NCBI GenBank assembly: GCA_002402125.1
Contig: NVVG01000103.1
Span: forward strand, 1-13,214
Reading direction: 5' to 3'
DNA: 13,214 bases
Source: Moraxellaceae bacterium
GTDB lineage: Bacteria; Pseudomonadota; Gammaproteobacteria; Pseudomonadales; Ketobacteraceae
A model generated the notes under the pieces. That model ran no database searches and was not told where the DNA came from. It saw only the letters and a list, made by a program, of their open reading frames with translations. The translations under genes and the position numbers were made by a program. This document shows, piece after piece, positions 6,105 to 12,854 of this stretch (position 1 is the first letter of the stretch; every line of letters starts with the position of its first letter).

Positions 6105-7124
6105 TTACAGAAGAGCCAAGGCTTTTTCTGAAAAGAAGAATGGCTCTAAACGACGTCGCAAGACCTTTTCCAACACCCCGTTTTCTTTGAGCACTTCAAT
6201 AGCAGGTGGCGCAAAAAGCATCGCTTCTTCCGTTAACATTTCCTTTTTAATACTCACTTCTTCTAGAATAAGCCTCAACGTAGAATCACCGTACTTGGAG
6301 AAAAAGAAATCTATCCCAGAATCGAGAACATCAAGGGTATAACTAACCTCACGAAGCTCTAACCAAAACTCATAACCCAACACTAAAAAGTCTTGTAAAT
6401 CCGCTGCAGAAATCGCTTCCCTAAACGTGGATATTTTCTTACCTTTTATCTTTTCCCAGGCATCTTGAGATATCTCGCTGATTTTCTCATTGCTCAGTGT
6501 TTTGTTAAGAAACTTCTCACTTTGCTTCAACGATTTACTCGCGTTCTTTTTGATGAATTTCTTAACATTTTCTTCAATTGCGGCCTCTAAATTAGGTGCC
6601 GCTTTGTTCATCATGCTTTTACCAAATTTCAACATAGATGCTGCACCAGGTACATTTTTTGTAACCGGGTTGTCAGAAATATAATCTTTAATCCCACTAT
6701 AAAGCAGATCGGAAACAAGATCTGAATAAACTGGATTGGCAACAATTTGGCCAATTGCCCGTTTCCTTAAATCTTCCATTTCTAAGGCTTTTTCCAACGC
6801 CACTTCAAACTGCTCATCAGAAACTAGGTCACCCACCTTGTTTGTATCATGAACCGGCAGGTCGTAAACATGTTCGGCAATTTCACCCATTAATTCCGGT
6901 ATTGCCCCATGAATTTCTACTTCTTTAACATATTTTTTAACCACTTGTTTGATCTGATCAGAGGTAACGACTTCGCCAAGGGTAACGTCTTCAATATCAT
7001 CGAAGAATTTATCAAGCTCTTCTTCTACAATCTTCTCAAAATCCTCGCCTGTAAGTTGTTCCATAAAGAACTCAACTTGAGCATCAAGGAGTTTTTGGGC
7101 TAGTTCCTTTTTCTGATCTGACAT
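6105..7124 (-). CDS. Conserved-looking hypothetical acidic helical protein
   Basis: About 339 residues from the ATG at 7122-7124, which has GGAG nine bases upstream. An upstream in-frame ATG at 7146-7148 would add eight residues (MNCSRRAY) inside a hairpin and looks less likely. I do not recognise the family. The N-terminal third is very acidic (for example EEELDKFFDDIED), the middle is Lys-rich (FIKKNASKSLKQSEKFLNK), and the whole reads as helical. There is no signal peptide, no clear membrane helix and no catalytic motif; a short Ala/Met stretch near 165-190 is only amphipathic. It is the first gene of the cluster leading to ung, with an 8-nt gap to the next gene. A cytoplasmic scaffold or binding protein would fit, without direct evidence. 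Confidence 0.8.
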   Translation of the reverse strand: MSDQKKELAQKLLDAQVEFFMEQLTGEDFEKIVEEELDKFFDDIEDVTLGEVVTSDQIKQVVKKYVKEVEIHGAIPELMGEIAEHVYDLPVHDTNKVGDLVSDEQFEVALEKALEMEDLRKRAIGQIVANPVYSDLVSDLLYSGIKDYISDNPVTKNVPGAASMLKFGKSMMNKAAPNLEAAIEENVKKFIKKNASKSLKQSEKFLNKTLSNEKISEISQDAWEKIKGKKISTFREAISAADLQDFLVLGYEFWLELREVSYTLDVLDSGIDFFFSKYGDSTLRLILEEVSIKKEMLTEEAMLFAPPAIEVLKENGVLEKVLRRRLEPFFFSEKALALL

Positions 7125-7142
7125 ATAGGCTCTCCGGCTACA

Positions 7143-7161
7143 GTTCACTTGCTGAGTGAAC
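7143..7161. promoter_or_regulatory. Perfect 7-bp inverted repeat upstream of the ung-hrpB cluster
   Basis: GTTCACT (7143-7149) and AGTGAAC (7155-7161) flank a 5-base spacer, 19 bases upstream of the chosen start of the first cluster gene. It could be an operator or a leader hairpin in its mRNA. No convincing sigma-70 boxes were fixed next to it. Confidence 0.4.
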
Positions 7162-8605: not shown

Positions 8606-9802
8606 TTAGTCCTGCAAATAGCCAATATTTTTCCAGGCTTGACGCTTCCGATAGATAGTAGAAGGACTCACCTCCAAATATTTTGCCGCCTTAGGAATGC
8701 TGTCACCACAGATTCTGATTGCCTCCTCAATCGCCTCCATCTCTACCGCCCACAACGCCTTGATTTTGTGCTCCTCACCCATGGCTTGATTTTTTTCAAC
8801 GATTAACTTCTGAATAATCTCAAGCGCGGCGGGGGGGATATAGGTTTCAGATGGCACCCGACTCAAAACTTGATCTACAGTTGGATTCGAAGCATGAGCA
8901 GCAATTAGATTAGATGCTTGACTCGATGTTTGGCTCGATGATTGACTCGATGTTTGAGCATGCAAATCATTCGCCGTAGAAGCTGCGGCCGCGGCAATTG
9001 CCTTCTCCTGTTCCAAGTCAAAACGGGTAATGGCAAACTCATCATCAGCATCATCGACAAAGGTAGGCGTCTGCATAGTACCATTTAACGGCGGCGGTAA
9101 CATTTCGGGCAATACCTGTTCGCCTTCGTTCAACACCACGACATTTCTAATCACATTTTGTAATTGCCGAATATTGCCCGGCCAATTATAGTTGGACAAA
9201 ATTGCCTCGGTTTTCAACGAGAAATCAACGAAGCTTTTCTCTTCCTCTTCTGCAAAACATTTCAAGAAATTCCGCGCGATATCCAGCGCATCACTGCCCC
9301 TATCGCGCAACGGGGGTAGCTCGATGGGTATTACATGCAAACGGTAATACAGATCCTCTCTGAATTCGCCTCGCGCCACCTGAGCCAGCGGATCCCTATT
9401 GGTGGCACAAACAAATCGCACATCAACAGACTCCAGCTTACTACCACCCACTTTTTTAAAGGTACCTGTTTGGACAAAACGCAACAACTTACTTTGCAGG
9501 TCAATATCCATCTCACCCAATTCGTCCAAAAACAAGGTACCACCGCTGGCGAGTGATGCAGCCCCCTCTCTTGCGGCATGGGCACCGGTAAAAGCTCCCT
9601 TAACATGGCCAAAGATCTCGCTTTCCATTAAATCTCGCGGTATCGCAGCACAGTTGATCGCAACAAATTCATTATCACGACGCTGGCTCTTCTCATGAAT
9701 CGCTAGCGCACACACTTCCTTGCCGGTACCACTTTCCCCAGTAATAAACACCGTTGCTTTACTTTCTGCCGCCGCGCCGATGACACGATACACCTGCTGC
9801 AT
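8606..9802 (-). CDS. LuxO/NtrC-like sigma-54 activator: AAA+ and Fis-type HTH part of a split regulator
   Basis: 398 residues from ATG 9802. It carries Walker A GESGTGKE (22-29), the sigma-54 loop GAFTGA (69-74), Walker B TLFLDE (89-94), ATNRD (133-137), WPGNIRQL (207-214) and a C-terminal Fis-type helix-turn-helix (about 355-390, with [12 protein letters not shown] as in LuxO). It should use ATP hydrolysis to open sigma-54 promoters. A Ser/Gln/Ala-rich insert (about 250-345) separates the AAA+ from the HTH. Upstream of ATG 9802 the frame stays open to 9853 and encodes [11 protein letters not shown], which belongs to the conserved start of the AAA+ region but has no ATG/GTG/TTG; a TAG lies at 9856-9854. 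So this looks like the second half of one gene with the receiver ORF at 9838-10269, separated by a one-base frame change. Independent start at 9802 would drop conserved residues. Confidence 0.85.
8918..8953. repeat. Three 12-bp tandem repeats coding [12 protein letters not shown]
   Basis: Units at 8918-8929, 8930-8941 and 8942-8953 differ by one or two bases. Being a multiple of three, changes in copy number would alter linker length between the AAA+ and DNA-binding domains without changing frame. Confidence 0.7.
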
Positions 9803-9837
9803 CTTTTCCGAGGTACCAATGAAGCCATAATAATGAT

Positions 9838-10269
9838 TTACCTCTTCACCCCCCTACGATCGTCGGCAGCGGCTCGACCACCTTCATTGAGATTCCATTG
9901 ATAACGATCCATGGCGTTTTTTAGGGTTATACACAATCTATCTTTGGTAAATGGTTTTTCTAAATAATCCAGTGCGCCATCATTCATCGCATCCACAGCA
10001 GAAACCGCAGAACCCTGCGCGGTCATTACCACAAAAACACAACCTAAGCCTTTCTCCTGAGAATGAAGAATAACCTCATTGCCCTTCATGTCATCCAACT
10101 CAAGTTCCAACAGGACAACATGAGGCCTTTCGGTATCGATGAATTTGATGGCCTCTGTGCCACTTCTTACGATGATTACCTGATAGTCATCCTCAGACAA
10201 ATAAGCCTGATAACACCGGCCTAACGTCAGACTTTTCTCTACTATTAAGAGCTTTTTAGCATCACTCAT
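9838..10269 (-). CDS. Pseudo-receiver part of the split LuxO-like regulator
   Basis: 143 residues with a CheY-like receiver fold (about 5-120). Conserved Thr83 (VMTAQGS) and Lys105 (LEKPF) are present. The acidic pair is Glu11-Lys12 instead of Asp-Asp, and the phospho-acceptor position is Glu55 ([13 protein letters not shown], where families have LLDLxLPDMxG). In LuxO (D47E) and NtrC (D54E), Asp-to-Glu here gives a constitutively active protein, so this domain may be locked on. The ORF ends in DDRRGVKR just after the G6 run at 9849-9854; with one extra G it would read on into the AAA+ frame, giving one protein of about 554 residues. ATG 10267-10269 has only a weak AGAG upstream. It follows the hybrid kinase by 113 bases. 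Confidence 0.85.
9849..9854 (-). other. G6 homopolymer at the frame junction of the split regulator
   Basis: On the coding strand the receiver reads CGT AGG GGG GTG AAG AGG TAA. The AAA+ frame reads GGG GGT GAA GAG GTA AAT. The two join by a -1 shift, or by a seventh G, within this run. Typical of phase-variable tracts, transcriptional slippage, or homopolymer sequencing error. Confidence 0.75.
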
Positions 10270-10382: not shown

Positions 10383-12854
10383 TCAGATTGAATTAAAAGC
10401 ATGAAATTCCTCTCTACTTCTGCGAAACACATCATCAAGTTCTATCAACAAACCCTGACAACCTTCTCCCCGTTGATGACTAGCAGATTCCGCCATCAAA
10501 TTCAGCACATTAAGCAGCCCACTGGCACCCAATGTTTTACAACTCATGATTAATGCATTGGCGTGACTACGAATTTTTGCCGGGTCCCTGCTCTCTACCG
10601 CTTGCCGGATAGAAACAATGGCGTCGGCGGTTTCTTCTATAAACAAGCCAATCATTTCTTTGGCAATATCAACACTGGTATCGTTGGCCAGCTGTTTAAG
10701 TACCTGTGTTGTAACCAAATCTGGTTGCTTTAGATTAACTCTATCGGTGCGCCGACTGTCATTGCGGCCAGATGACGCGGATGATGAGCGGCGATCGAGA
10801 GCCCCCGTTGTCACCTCATTGCCTCCTAACCAATAGGCAACGGTCGCCACCATAATCTGTGGTTCAATGGGTTTCGTCATATAATCATCCATGCCGGTAT
10901 GAACACACCGACGCCACACTTCATCACTGATGTTATTGGTGATACCAATAATCGGTATATGCGTTTTATACTGCTCCAACGCCCGTACGCGAGCGGTCGC
11001 CTCAATGCCATCCATTTCCGGCATCCAAATATCCATCAGAATAAGATCGTAGTGCTTTTGTTCTACCGCATGCACCACCTCCGCGCCGGTGCTCACACAA
11101 TCAACCCGGTAACCCACTTTGTTCAATATCGCAGACACCACCATCTGTGTCACCTTGCCATCATCCGCAATCAAAATGCGGCCGTCATACTTCTTGTCGG
11201 TTAAGTCCTCCACCGGCGCAACAATTTCACTTTCGGCGGCAAAGGGTTCGGGAAATTTTAATAGCCTAGCCAATTTATTCGCCAGGACAGCGGGTCGCAC
11301 CGGTTGTCTAACATGGGTATGTCGAACCCGGGCAAATTGATGGGCCGCGATGGGTTCGAAGTTACCGGGGGTGATAACAACAAAATCACATTTTTCAATA
11401 TTGTTGTTAGAATTAAGGTATTCATTGACCGATCGCATTAACGCCGCATGACTGACATCGGTTCTATGTACATTTAATAGTATTAACGACGGATCCAGTT
11501 GTTTAATCTCATCGCCGGTTAAAAACGATACCGCAGCTTTCTCGCTACTAAACACCTGTAAATTTGCACCCCAAGACATTAGCTGCCTTTCTAGCTGATT
11601 GCGGGCATCTTCAATCACATCAATATAAACAATCGACTGACCTTGCAAGAATTCCTTATTCTCGCTGGGTTTGTTATCTATTCCGCTGATTTCTTGATCT
11701 TCGGCGGCAACATCCAAGGAAAACCAAAACAGTGCGCCGACACCAGGCAGGCTACTAAAACCAACGATGCCTCCCATCATCTGCACCAGCTTTCTAGCCA
11801 ACATGTAATTCAACACCACACCAGAATAGCGCCTGGAGATGGACATCTTATCCATCAATTTATCTGAAATTAATTGCTGGTAAGCTTCCTCGTCTACCCC
11901 CTCGCCTGTATCGAGAATTTCAAAACGCACACGGCCATCTCGAGTGCGGTTAACTTCTAATTTAACCGAACCTTGTTCCGTCAGACTCAAGGCAATTCTC
12001 AAGGATTTAAGAATGATGTTGCGCATTCTCGCTTCATCCGCCACGATATATTCATCGATATCGGCAGCAACAAAACTACTGAATTCAACCCCCTTTGCCT
12101 CCGCCTCGGGCCCAATCAGCTCAACCACATCACCAATAATCGCCATGATATTACAGGGGTGTTTGTTGCTTTTTAAATTACCGGTATTGACTTTGAATAG
12201 GTCGCTGGCATCGCGTAAAGTACCCGCCAGGCGTTCGCCCGAGGTAAGCATCGTGGCCAATAGATCCTTCTGCTCATTGGAGGGCGACATTAGCCCCATG
12301 GCTTTAATGGTCGACACCATATCATTTAGCGGAGATCGCCACTCACGCTCGATGATTTGCATTAAACCCTCACAATCATTCAGATCGGGAGCAAGCCCCC
12401 CTAGATCCAAATTGGAAAGAAACTGCGGTTTACCTTCACCATGAAAAACCCGCTGAATGACCGTGATATATTCATCTTTGTTTTTAAAGCGAATAAAGCT
12501 GGTTTTGACATCAACCGGAATCCGGCCCCCACCCTTCTTCACAAATACCGCGCCCTTCACCTCCACTTGGCTCATATTGAACGCATCAATGGCACCAAGA
12601 TCCTGATCGGTATCGCGTTTTTGGCTAGGTTGAATATCCGCCATATTCAGCTTGGATAATTCTGCTTCGGTGTAACCTAACAGTGTCTGCACCGTAGAGT
12701 TAGAGTCAACAATATCGCCGTTAAGGTCATGCAACAGCATCGATGCCGGAGAAACCGCACACAGCGAACTTAACTGCGCTTCTTGTGCTTTTAGACGATC
12801 TGACTTTGCTGCCACCGCATTAGTGTTGGCTGTAATGTTATCTTGTTGGGTCAT
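10383..12854 (-). CDS. Degenerate hybrid histidine-kinase-like protein (PAS-HisKA-HATPase-REC-REC-Hpt)
   Basis: 823 residues, no membrane helix, so cytoplasmic. Order: PAS (about 25-137); HisKA-like (about 160-225); HATPase-like (about 235-382); REC1 (about 405-533); REC2 (about 558-676); Hpt-like (about 712-823). The H-box reads REWRSPLN with Arg170 for His. The N-box is ILKSLRIALSLT with Ile287 for Asn. G1 is kept (DTGEG, 315-319) but G2 reads SGVVLNYM and lacks its glycines. REC1 has Asn461 for the phospho-Asp. REC2 is canonical: Asp564-Asp565, Asp608 (LILMDIWMPEMDG), Thr639, Lys661. The Hpt reads ANALIMSCKTLGA with Asn766 for His. So it is probably kinase-dead and relay-dead, with REC2 the only site able to accept phosphate. 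It lies directly before the LuxO-like regulator and likely partners it. No clear Shine-Dalgarno precedes ATG 12854. Confidence 0.88.
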   Translation of the reverse strand: MTQQDNITANTNAVAAKSDRLKAQEAQLSSLCAVSPASMLLHDLNGDIVDSNSTVQTLLGYTEAELSKLNMADIQPSQKRDTDQDLGAIDAFNMSQVEVKGAVFVKKGGGRIPVDVKTSFIRFKNKDEYITVIQRVFHGEGKPQFLSNLDLGGLAPDLNDCEGLMQIIEREWRSPLNDMVSTIKAMGLMSPSNEQKDLLATMLTSGERLAGTLRDASDLFKVNTGNLKSNKHPCNIMAIIGDVVELIGPEAEAKGVEFSSFVAADIDEYIVADEARMRNIILKSLRIALSLTEQGSVKLEVNRTRDGRVRFEILDTGEGVDEEAYQQLISDKLMDKMSISRRYSGVVLNYMLARKLVQMMGGIVGFSSLPGVGALFWFSLDVAAEDQEISGIDNKPSENKEFLQGQSIVYIDVIEDARNQLERQLMSWGANLQVFSSEKAAVSFLTGDEIKQLDPSLILLNVHRTDVSHAALMRSVNEYLNSNNNIEKCDFVVITPGNFEPIAAHQFARVRHTHVRQPVRPAVLANKLARLLKFPEPFAAESEIVAPVEDLTDKKYDGRILIADDGKVTQMVVSAILNKVGYRVDCVSTGAEVVHAVEQKHYDLILMDIWMPEMDGIEATARVRALEQYKTHIPIIGITNNISDEVWRRCVHTGMDDYMTKPIEPQIMVATVAYWLGGNEVTTGALDRRSSSASSGRNDSRRTDRVNLKQPDLVTTQVLKQLANDTSVDIAKEMIGLFIEETADAIVSIRQAVESRDPAKIRSHANALIMSCKTLGASGLLNVLNLMAESASHQRGEGCQGLLIELDDVFRRSREEFHAFNSI

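Follow-up and report, generated by a model that had tools for sequence, protein, structure and literature searches.

A LuxO-type regulator gene with a one-base frame offset at a G6 run and changed phosphorelay residues in its receiver and upstream kinase

In the window analysed here (bases 1-13214 of contig C233, from a draft assembly in 302 contigs that totals 4.62 Mb, with 87.1% completeness and 2.68% contamination), the gene of a LuxO-type regulator is divided over two reading frames, whereby the receiver frame and the LuxO-type AAA+ frame are offset by one base in the linker, at a run of six G. This regulator, denoted LuxO2, and its own hybrid kinase, HK2, probably represent a lineage-restricted paralog of an intact LuxO1/kinase pair located elsewhere in the genome, and phosphorelay chemistry appears to have been lost stepwise in the LuxO2/HK2 lineage, furthest in the window. 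The split and the changed residues are read directly in the assembly; from them, we infer, leaning towards this reading over its alternatives, that the break is genuine and recent and lies on a degenerate branch. A LuxO paralog already uncoupled from the phosphorelay would have undergone a one-base slip at the G6 run in a poorly constrained linker, which split the gene. As a consequence, full-length regulator would no longer be made and the receiver fragment would be of little use, while an AAA+/DNA-binding protein without receiver and autoinhibitory linker may possibly be produced from the ATG at 9802.

The three frames follow each other on the minus strand in the order HK2, receiver ORF and AAA+/HTH frame. 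The receiver fragment (10269-9838, minus strand, 143 aa, stop codon TAA at 9840-9838) is recognised by Pfam Response_reg with 62.4 bits. The AAA+/DNA-binding frame (9853-8606, minus strand) is open over 415 aa, with Sigma54_activat, AAA lid and HTH_8 domains, and its first possible start among ATG, GTG and TTG is the ATG at 9800..9802, from which a 398-aa ORF starts. An earlier sequence-only reading had noted a stretch of 11 residues in this frame without a start codon of its own, and direct reading indeed places that stretch upstream of ATG 9802. The G6 run itself occupies 9854-9849 in the minus-strand direction, and the shift falls in a zone of ~18 nt between the opening of the AAA+ frame (9855/9853) and the receiver stop (9838). 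The same reading had located the one-base offset at the G6 run with these coordinates, which both the letters and the codon-usage scores confirm: before the tract one frame scores +9.5 versus -22.8 and -18.1 for the other two, and after the tract a different frame scores +12.8 versus -17.4 and -16.9. Counted from alignments, the linker from ..DR to YYGFIG comprises about 24 residues in the window, 24 in a genome of the same genus (G001) and 23 in a genome of another family in the same order (G075), and these near-equal lengths fit a simple one-base offset.

The assignment of both pieces as LuxO-type, likewise proposed from the letters, was corroborated by database searches. LuxO, the Vibrio sigma-54 quorum-sensing activator (NCBIfam NF041946; PDB 5ep0-5ep4), is the best NCBIfam match for both pieces, and LuxO structures are the best PDB matches of the AAA+ frame (5ep0, 5ep1 and 5ep2, with 5ep0 at 3.6e-107), residues 7-256 aligning with 5ep0 139-388. 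The window shares with LuxO the receiver-linker-AAA+-HTH order and the linker glycine of the GFIG motif, which is situated at the linker/C-domain border (9815..9826). From its alignment to 5ep0 chain position 142, the first glycine of GFIG is taken to correspond to LuxO Gly 141, for which a role in the linker is described in PMC4878744. In contrast to LuxO, the regulator of the window is split, has Glu in place of the phospho-Asp, has a long additional stretch separating AAA+ from HTH and is not the canonical copy of its genome. Its scores of 508.8 bits (AAA+) and 84.2 bits (receiver, over the N-terminus of the model) miss the NCBIfam LuxO equivalog cut-off of 800 bits, under which the intact relatives also remain (G001 LuxO2, 614.1 bits; LuxO1 on contig C237, 645.1 bits). 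The AAA+ part possesses the intact ATPase and sigma-54 motifs of the LuxO family, but a single chain with a phosphorylatable receiver is absent. Therefore, given this absence and the score below the cut-off, the window regulator is not filed as a LuxO.

The sequence-only reading also held that every functional motif is kept. This is true for the AAA+ part, in which Walker A (GESGTGKE, 9739-9716), GAFTGA (9598-9581) and LFLDE are all intact, but not for the receiver and the upstream kinase, where phosphotransfer residues are lost. In the receiver, the phospho-aspartate position (residue 55, 10105..10107) is occupied by Glu and the second position of the acidic pair (residue 12, 10234..10236) by Lys. 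Across an alignment of 90 proteins, the phospho-Asp column contains 85 D, 3 N, one gap and a single E, that of the window, while the second acidic column contains 85 D, 3 P, one G (G001) and one K (the window). For the 80 named loci alone, the respective counts are 76 D, 3 N and one gap, and 77 D and 3 P. Both LuxO2 relatives retain Asp at the phospho-site, and at the second acidic position G001 has Gly and G075 has Asp. With its Response_reg fold still recognised, but Glu replacing the phospho-Asp and Lys the acidic Asp, the fragment corresponds to the description of a pseudo-receiver.

Among other LuxO-like proteins, three from Azospirillaceae (Azospirillum MAG, Niveispirillum) have their phospho-site occupied by Asn, their second acidic position by Pro and the position of the conserved Lys by Leu, apparently an independent LuxO-type pseudo-receiver. 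Another LuxO-like protein, from an Aeromonas record, has a receiver stretch with the phospho-site missing in an otherwise open frame.

The kinase HK2 (12854-10383, minus strand, 823 aa) consists of PAS, degenerate HisKA, HATPase_c, receiver and degenerate Hpt domains. HisKA and Hpt stay under their Pfam cut-offs (14.7 of 26.9 bits and 17 of 24.6 bits, respectively), and HATPase_c scores 45.3 bits. Comparison with other kinases placed Arg at the H-box His (residue 170, 12345..12347), Lys at the first N-box Asn (residue 283), Ile at the second N-box Asn (residue 287, 11994..11996) and Asn at the Hpt His (residue 766, 10557..10559). At the H-box, G001 has Asn and G075 has Lys, versus His in 8/8 comparison kinases. 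The first N-box position is Lys in all three HK2 proteins and the second is Asn in both relatives, as are both positions in 8/8 comparison kinases. The Hpt position is Asn in G001 and His in G075, and it is His in the six comparison kinases with this domain in the alignment. The internal receiver Asp of HK2 is kept in the window, G001 and G075. A kinase architecture with HATPase_c and without the phospho-accepting His agrees with the description of a pseudo-histidine kinase.

According to PMC12632262, phosphorylation sites are missing in 2.0% of receivers, 0.9% of HisKA domains and 0.9% of Hpt domains. Set against these rates, three site losses in one pair would point to a lineage trend rather than to independent accidents, and the residue losses in receiver and kinase fit a progressive loss of relay control. 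Pseudo-receivers and pseudo-histidine kinases share with the window the missing Asp and His phosphorylation sites; unlike them, this pair has lost all three sites, with intermediates in two relatives. Among the titles and abstract beginnings of the literature matches listed, no degenerate LuxO paralog, no such pseudo-kinase with Hpt and no pseudo-receiver with sigma-54 was described.

The LuxO2/HK2 pair was found in three genomes only, namely those of the window, G001 and G075. In G001, the kinase is likewise followed by the regulator, here one chain of 536 aa, which is 76% identical to that of the window over 240 AAA+ residues and 49% over 117 receiver residues, and its kinase is 40% identical to HK2 over 798 residues. 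G075 displays the same gene order, a kinase of 45% identity and a regulator whose receiver, linker and AAA+ share one open frame as far as the contig reaches. Orthologs of HK2 (E < 1e-190) occur in two of the five genomes of the genus, the other three giving only general kinase matches (best 1.8e-56), and in two of the 15 genomes of the family. In the order, at least three of 390 genomes carry one, with two more passing 1e-60 at 27-30% identity; in the class sample it is at least one of 369, the window itself, with nine more passing 1e-75 at 28-31% identity. Since two candidates were scored per genome in the order and class searches, this spread is a lower bound. The strongest of the weaker matches, in G689 (30% identity, 5.0e-102), has the H-box His.

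The same genome encodes an intact LuxO1 of 474 aa on contig C237, adjoining a canonical hybrid kinase, and counterparts of this LuxO1/kinase pair are present in G001, G003 and G004. The genome also contains rpoN. When 90 AAA+ domains were placed in a tree, for which the bootstrap had not settled, the three LuxO2 proteins formed a clade apart from LuxO1 (100/100). Within this clade, G001 groups with G075 and not with the window (95/76), which leaves the order of the residue losses unsure. As a separate observation, G075 gave no match to the sigma-54 DNA-binding domain despite its LuxO-type gene; this assembly is 87% complete.

Divergence within the gene was compared between its two parts. The receiver-to-AAA+ divergence ratio is 2.0-2.3 in the three LuxO2 pairs versus 1.3-1.7 in ten LuxO1 pairs, but because LuxO1-LuxO2 pairs also show a high ratio (1.75-2.31), the LuxO2 value may partly reflect distance rather than relaxed constraint. 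In the receiver, the AAA+ part and the kinase, differences favour third codon positions, and the frames contain no further stops. The frames were therefore probably maintained until recently, although third positions near saturation (0.60-0.69 differing) weaken this argument. The presence of this bias on each side of the break, with no other stops, suggests that the break is recent.

How reliably homopolymers are counted in this assembly bears on whether the break belongs to the organism or to its draft sequence. A whole-contig frameshift detector was set aside, as its 43 calls lay in many cases at stop codons and the break of the window was missed. Instead, a tract-centred frame test was applied to 547,070 bases of the same assembly (about 12%), composed of 40 stretches picked by contig number (mostly round numbers, some already known), the window contig and the LuxO1 contig. 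With runs at contig ends uncounted, this sample contains 81 G/C runs of at least six; 41 were undecided and 40 decisively framed, 39 of which keep the same frame, eight of these being seven or longer, and the only shifted one is the G6 run of the window. For A/T, 831 runs yielded 384 decisive cases (378 in the same frame and six shifted); inspected by eye, four of the six resemble the boundaries of genes, another reads through in a single frame and the last is ambiguous. The window has three further G/C runs of at least six, at 621, 8831 and 12396. The frame remains unbroken both at the seven-base run of 8831-8837, between AAA+ and HTH in the same AAA+ frame, and at the run inside HK2. The 39 of 40 decisive G/C runs in frame argue against systematic homopolymer error. 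Given the density of 81 runs per 547,070 bases, a G/C run would fall by chance in a zone of ~18 nt in about 0.3% of cases; slippage at the run, be it cellular or an artefact of sequencing, is the most natural source of the change. Slippage, as proposed in the sequence-only reading, is plausible as origin.

A single consensus or assembly error, with one open LuxO2 gene in the organism and a miscounted G run in the contig, is possible, though less likely than a genuine break. The incomplete, fragmented draft, the single-frame relatives and the intact AAA+ motifs would agree with it, and one such error would give the same picture as decay in what is a single draft assembly; against it stand the in-frame G/C runs, including the eight long ones, and the scarcity of shifted A/T runs, most of which resemble gene borders. 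The sequence-only reading had raised the G tract as an ON/OFF switch, and its presence in relatives bears on this reading. Over the part of the linker that was compared, G001 carries an in-frame G5 almost at the position of the G6, and an A5, while G075 has no run of at least five; of the five LuxO1 genes, four lack such a run, the fifth has an A6 and none has a G run. Phase variation is not without parallel, since PMC3930126 describes homopolymer frame changes in flgR of Campylobacter jejuni, an NtrC-family sigma-54 regulator, which by analogy is a true precedent for such switching in the same protein class. However, the flgR tracts are of A/T, and the short G tract here comes with no evidence of switching. 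Despite a homopolymer at the break of a sigma-54 regulator and the G5 of G001, a reversible switch is unlikely: the tract is only six long and not conserved among G001, G075 and the five LuxO1 genes, the seven-base run elsewhere in this gene leaves the frame intact, and the chemistry to be regulated is already lost. With the other runs in frame and the tract not conserved, systematic homopolymer error and a conserved contingency tract both lack support. Late decay, or else a slip in sequencing, seems to account for the split better than an on/off switch.

Recoding, in which slippage along the G run during translation or transcription would yield some full-length protein, is very unlikely. The receiver frame has a GGG codon in the run, which could let the tRNA in the P site slip back by one base and pair again, and coding periodicity is kept by both halves, but inspection of the junction ruled out a tandem-slippery site: there is no tandem re-pairing heptamer, and the tRNA of the following codon, GTG, would find no match on GGT. 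Nor do the relatives examined offer a similar split. Among 579 named LuxO-like matches, each of the best 80 (80/80) has 140 or more open codons ahead of Walker A, versus 38 codons in the window, and neither these loci nor the LuxO2 genes of G001 and G075 have the two-frame arrangement or genuinely separate receiver and AAA+ genes, a case which the sequence-only reading had named as contrary to its proposal. A functional pair of separate receiver and AAA+ proteins, with the receiver acting in trans, is thus hardly credible. According to PMC4878744, the C domain of LuxO is inhibited in vitro by receiver plus linker supplied in trans, and by the receiver alone only weakly, and ATG 9802 has an ordinary SD score; yet the linker segment filling the ATPase site is encoded ahead of the first start codon of the AAA+ frame, within that frame, and would be carried by neither product.

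The preferred reading, a recent and genuine break, also meets counter-evidence, in that the intact AAA+ motifs and the 823-codon kinase frame argue against free decay of the whole unit. Moreover, the codon at ATG 9802 is simply that of an internal Met which was inherited and is conserved in the intact relatives. Its SD energy of -3.5 is average, with medians of -3.8 for 181 first ATGs and -2.4 for 2018 internal ATGs, and the ATG at 9828, which is out of frame, surpasses it with -7.2. Some AAA+ product from ATG 9802 is therefore possible but not indicated. Such a start drops GFIGTSEK, the first residues of the crystallised LuxO C-domain chains, so the product may not work. If it is made and folded, it would be unregulated owing to the missing receiver and autoinhibitory linker. 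The break falls in the region corresponding to this linker, which in LuxO blocks the ATPase site, and both receiver deletion and Glu at the phospho-site are reported as activating, the former constitutively, in PMC4878744 and PMC11407668. In the survey of PMC10426928, 88 of 5460 Vibrio genomes carry an in-frame receiver deletion by which LuxO is locked in the low-density state. With the constitutive LuxO alleles (D61E/D47E, receiver deletions and in-frame deletions of wild vibrios), the window shares a Glu at the phospho-site and the physical loss of receiver control; it differs in that its changes appear natural, on a paralog and accompanied by the loss of other active-site residues. Regarding possible activation of qrr small RNAs, no Rfam match at gathering score was obtained in six loci, and the sigma-54 pattern, found six times in the contig versus a mean of 8.83 expected, is not above chance.

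Taken alone, the frame break is ordinary. If the losses are real, G075, G001 and the window would form a natural series in which a LuxO-type relay sheds its phosphate-handling residues and keeps the ATPase, allowing one to test how such regulators work without phosphorylation. As a tentative proposal, LuxO2/HK2 might be a small sigma-54 regulator lineage moving from a phosphorelay to phosphorylation-independent control, in which pseudo-kinase and pseudo-receiver were kept open for another purpose. The window would be its end point: first the phosphomimetic Glu, then the physical separation of the receiver would have freed a LuxO-type ATPase of the relay.

Elsewhere in the window, a 347-aa ORF at 6105-7148 has no Pfam match at 0.001, and positions 3-1436 encode a portion of a repetitive protein, in which Glu/Pro-rich EEPVAE repeats separate fibronectin-III-like units.
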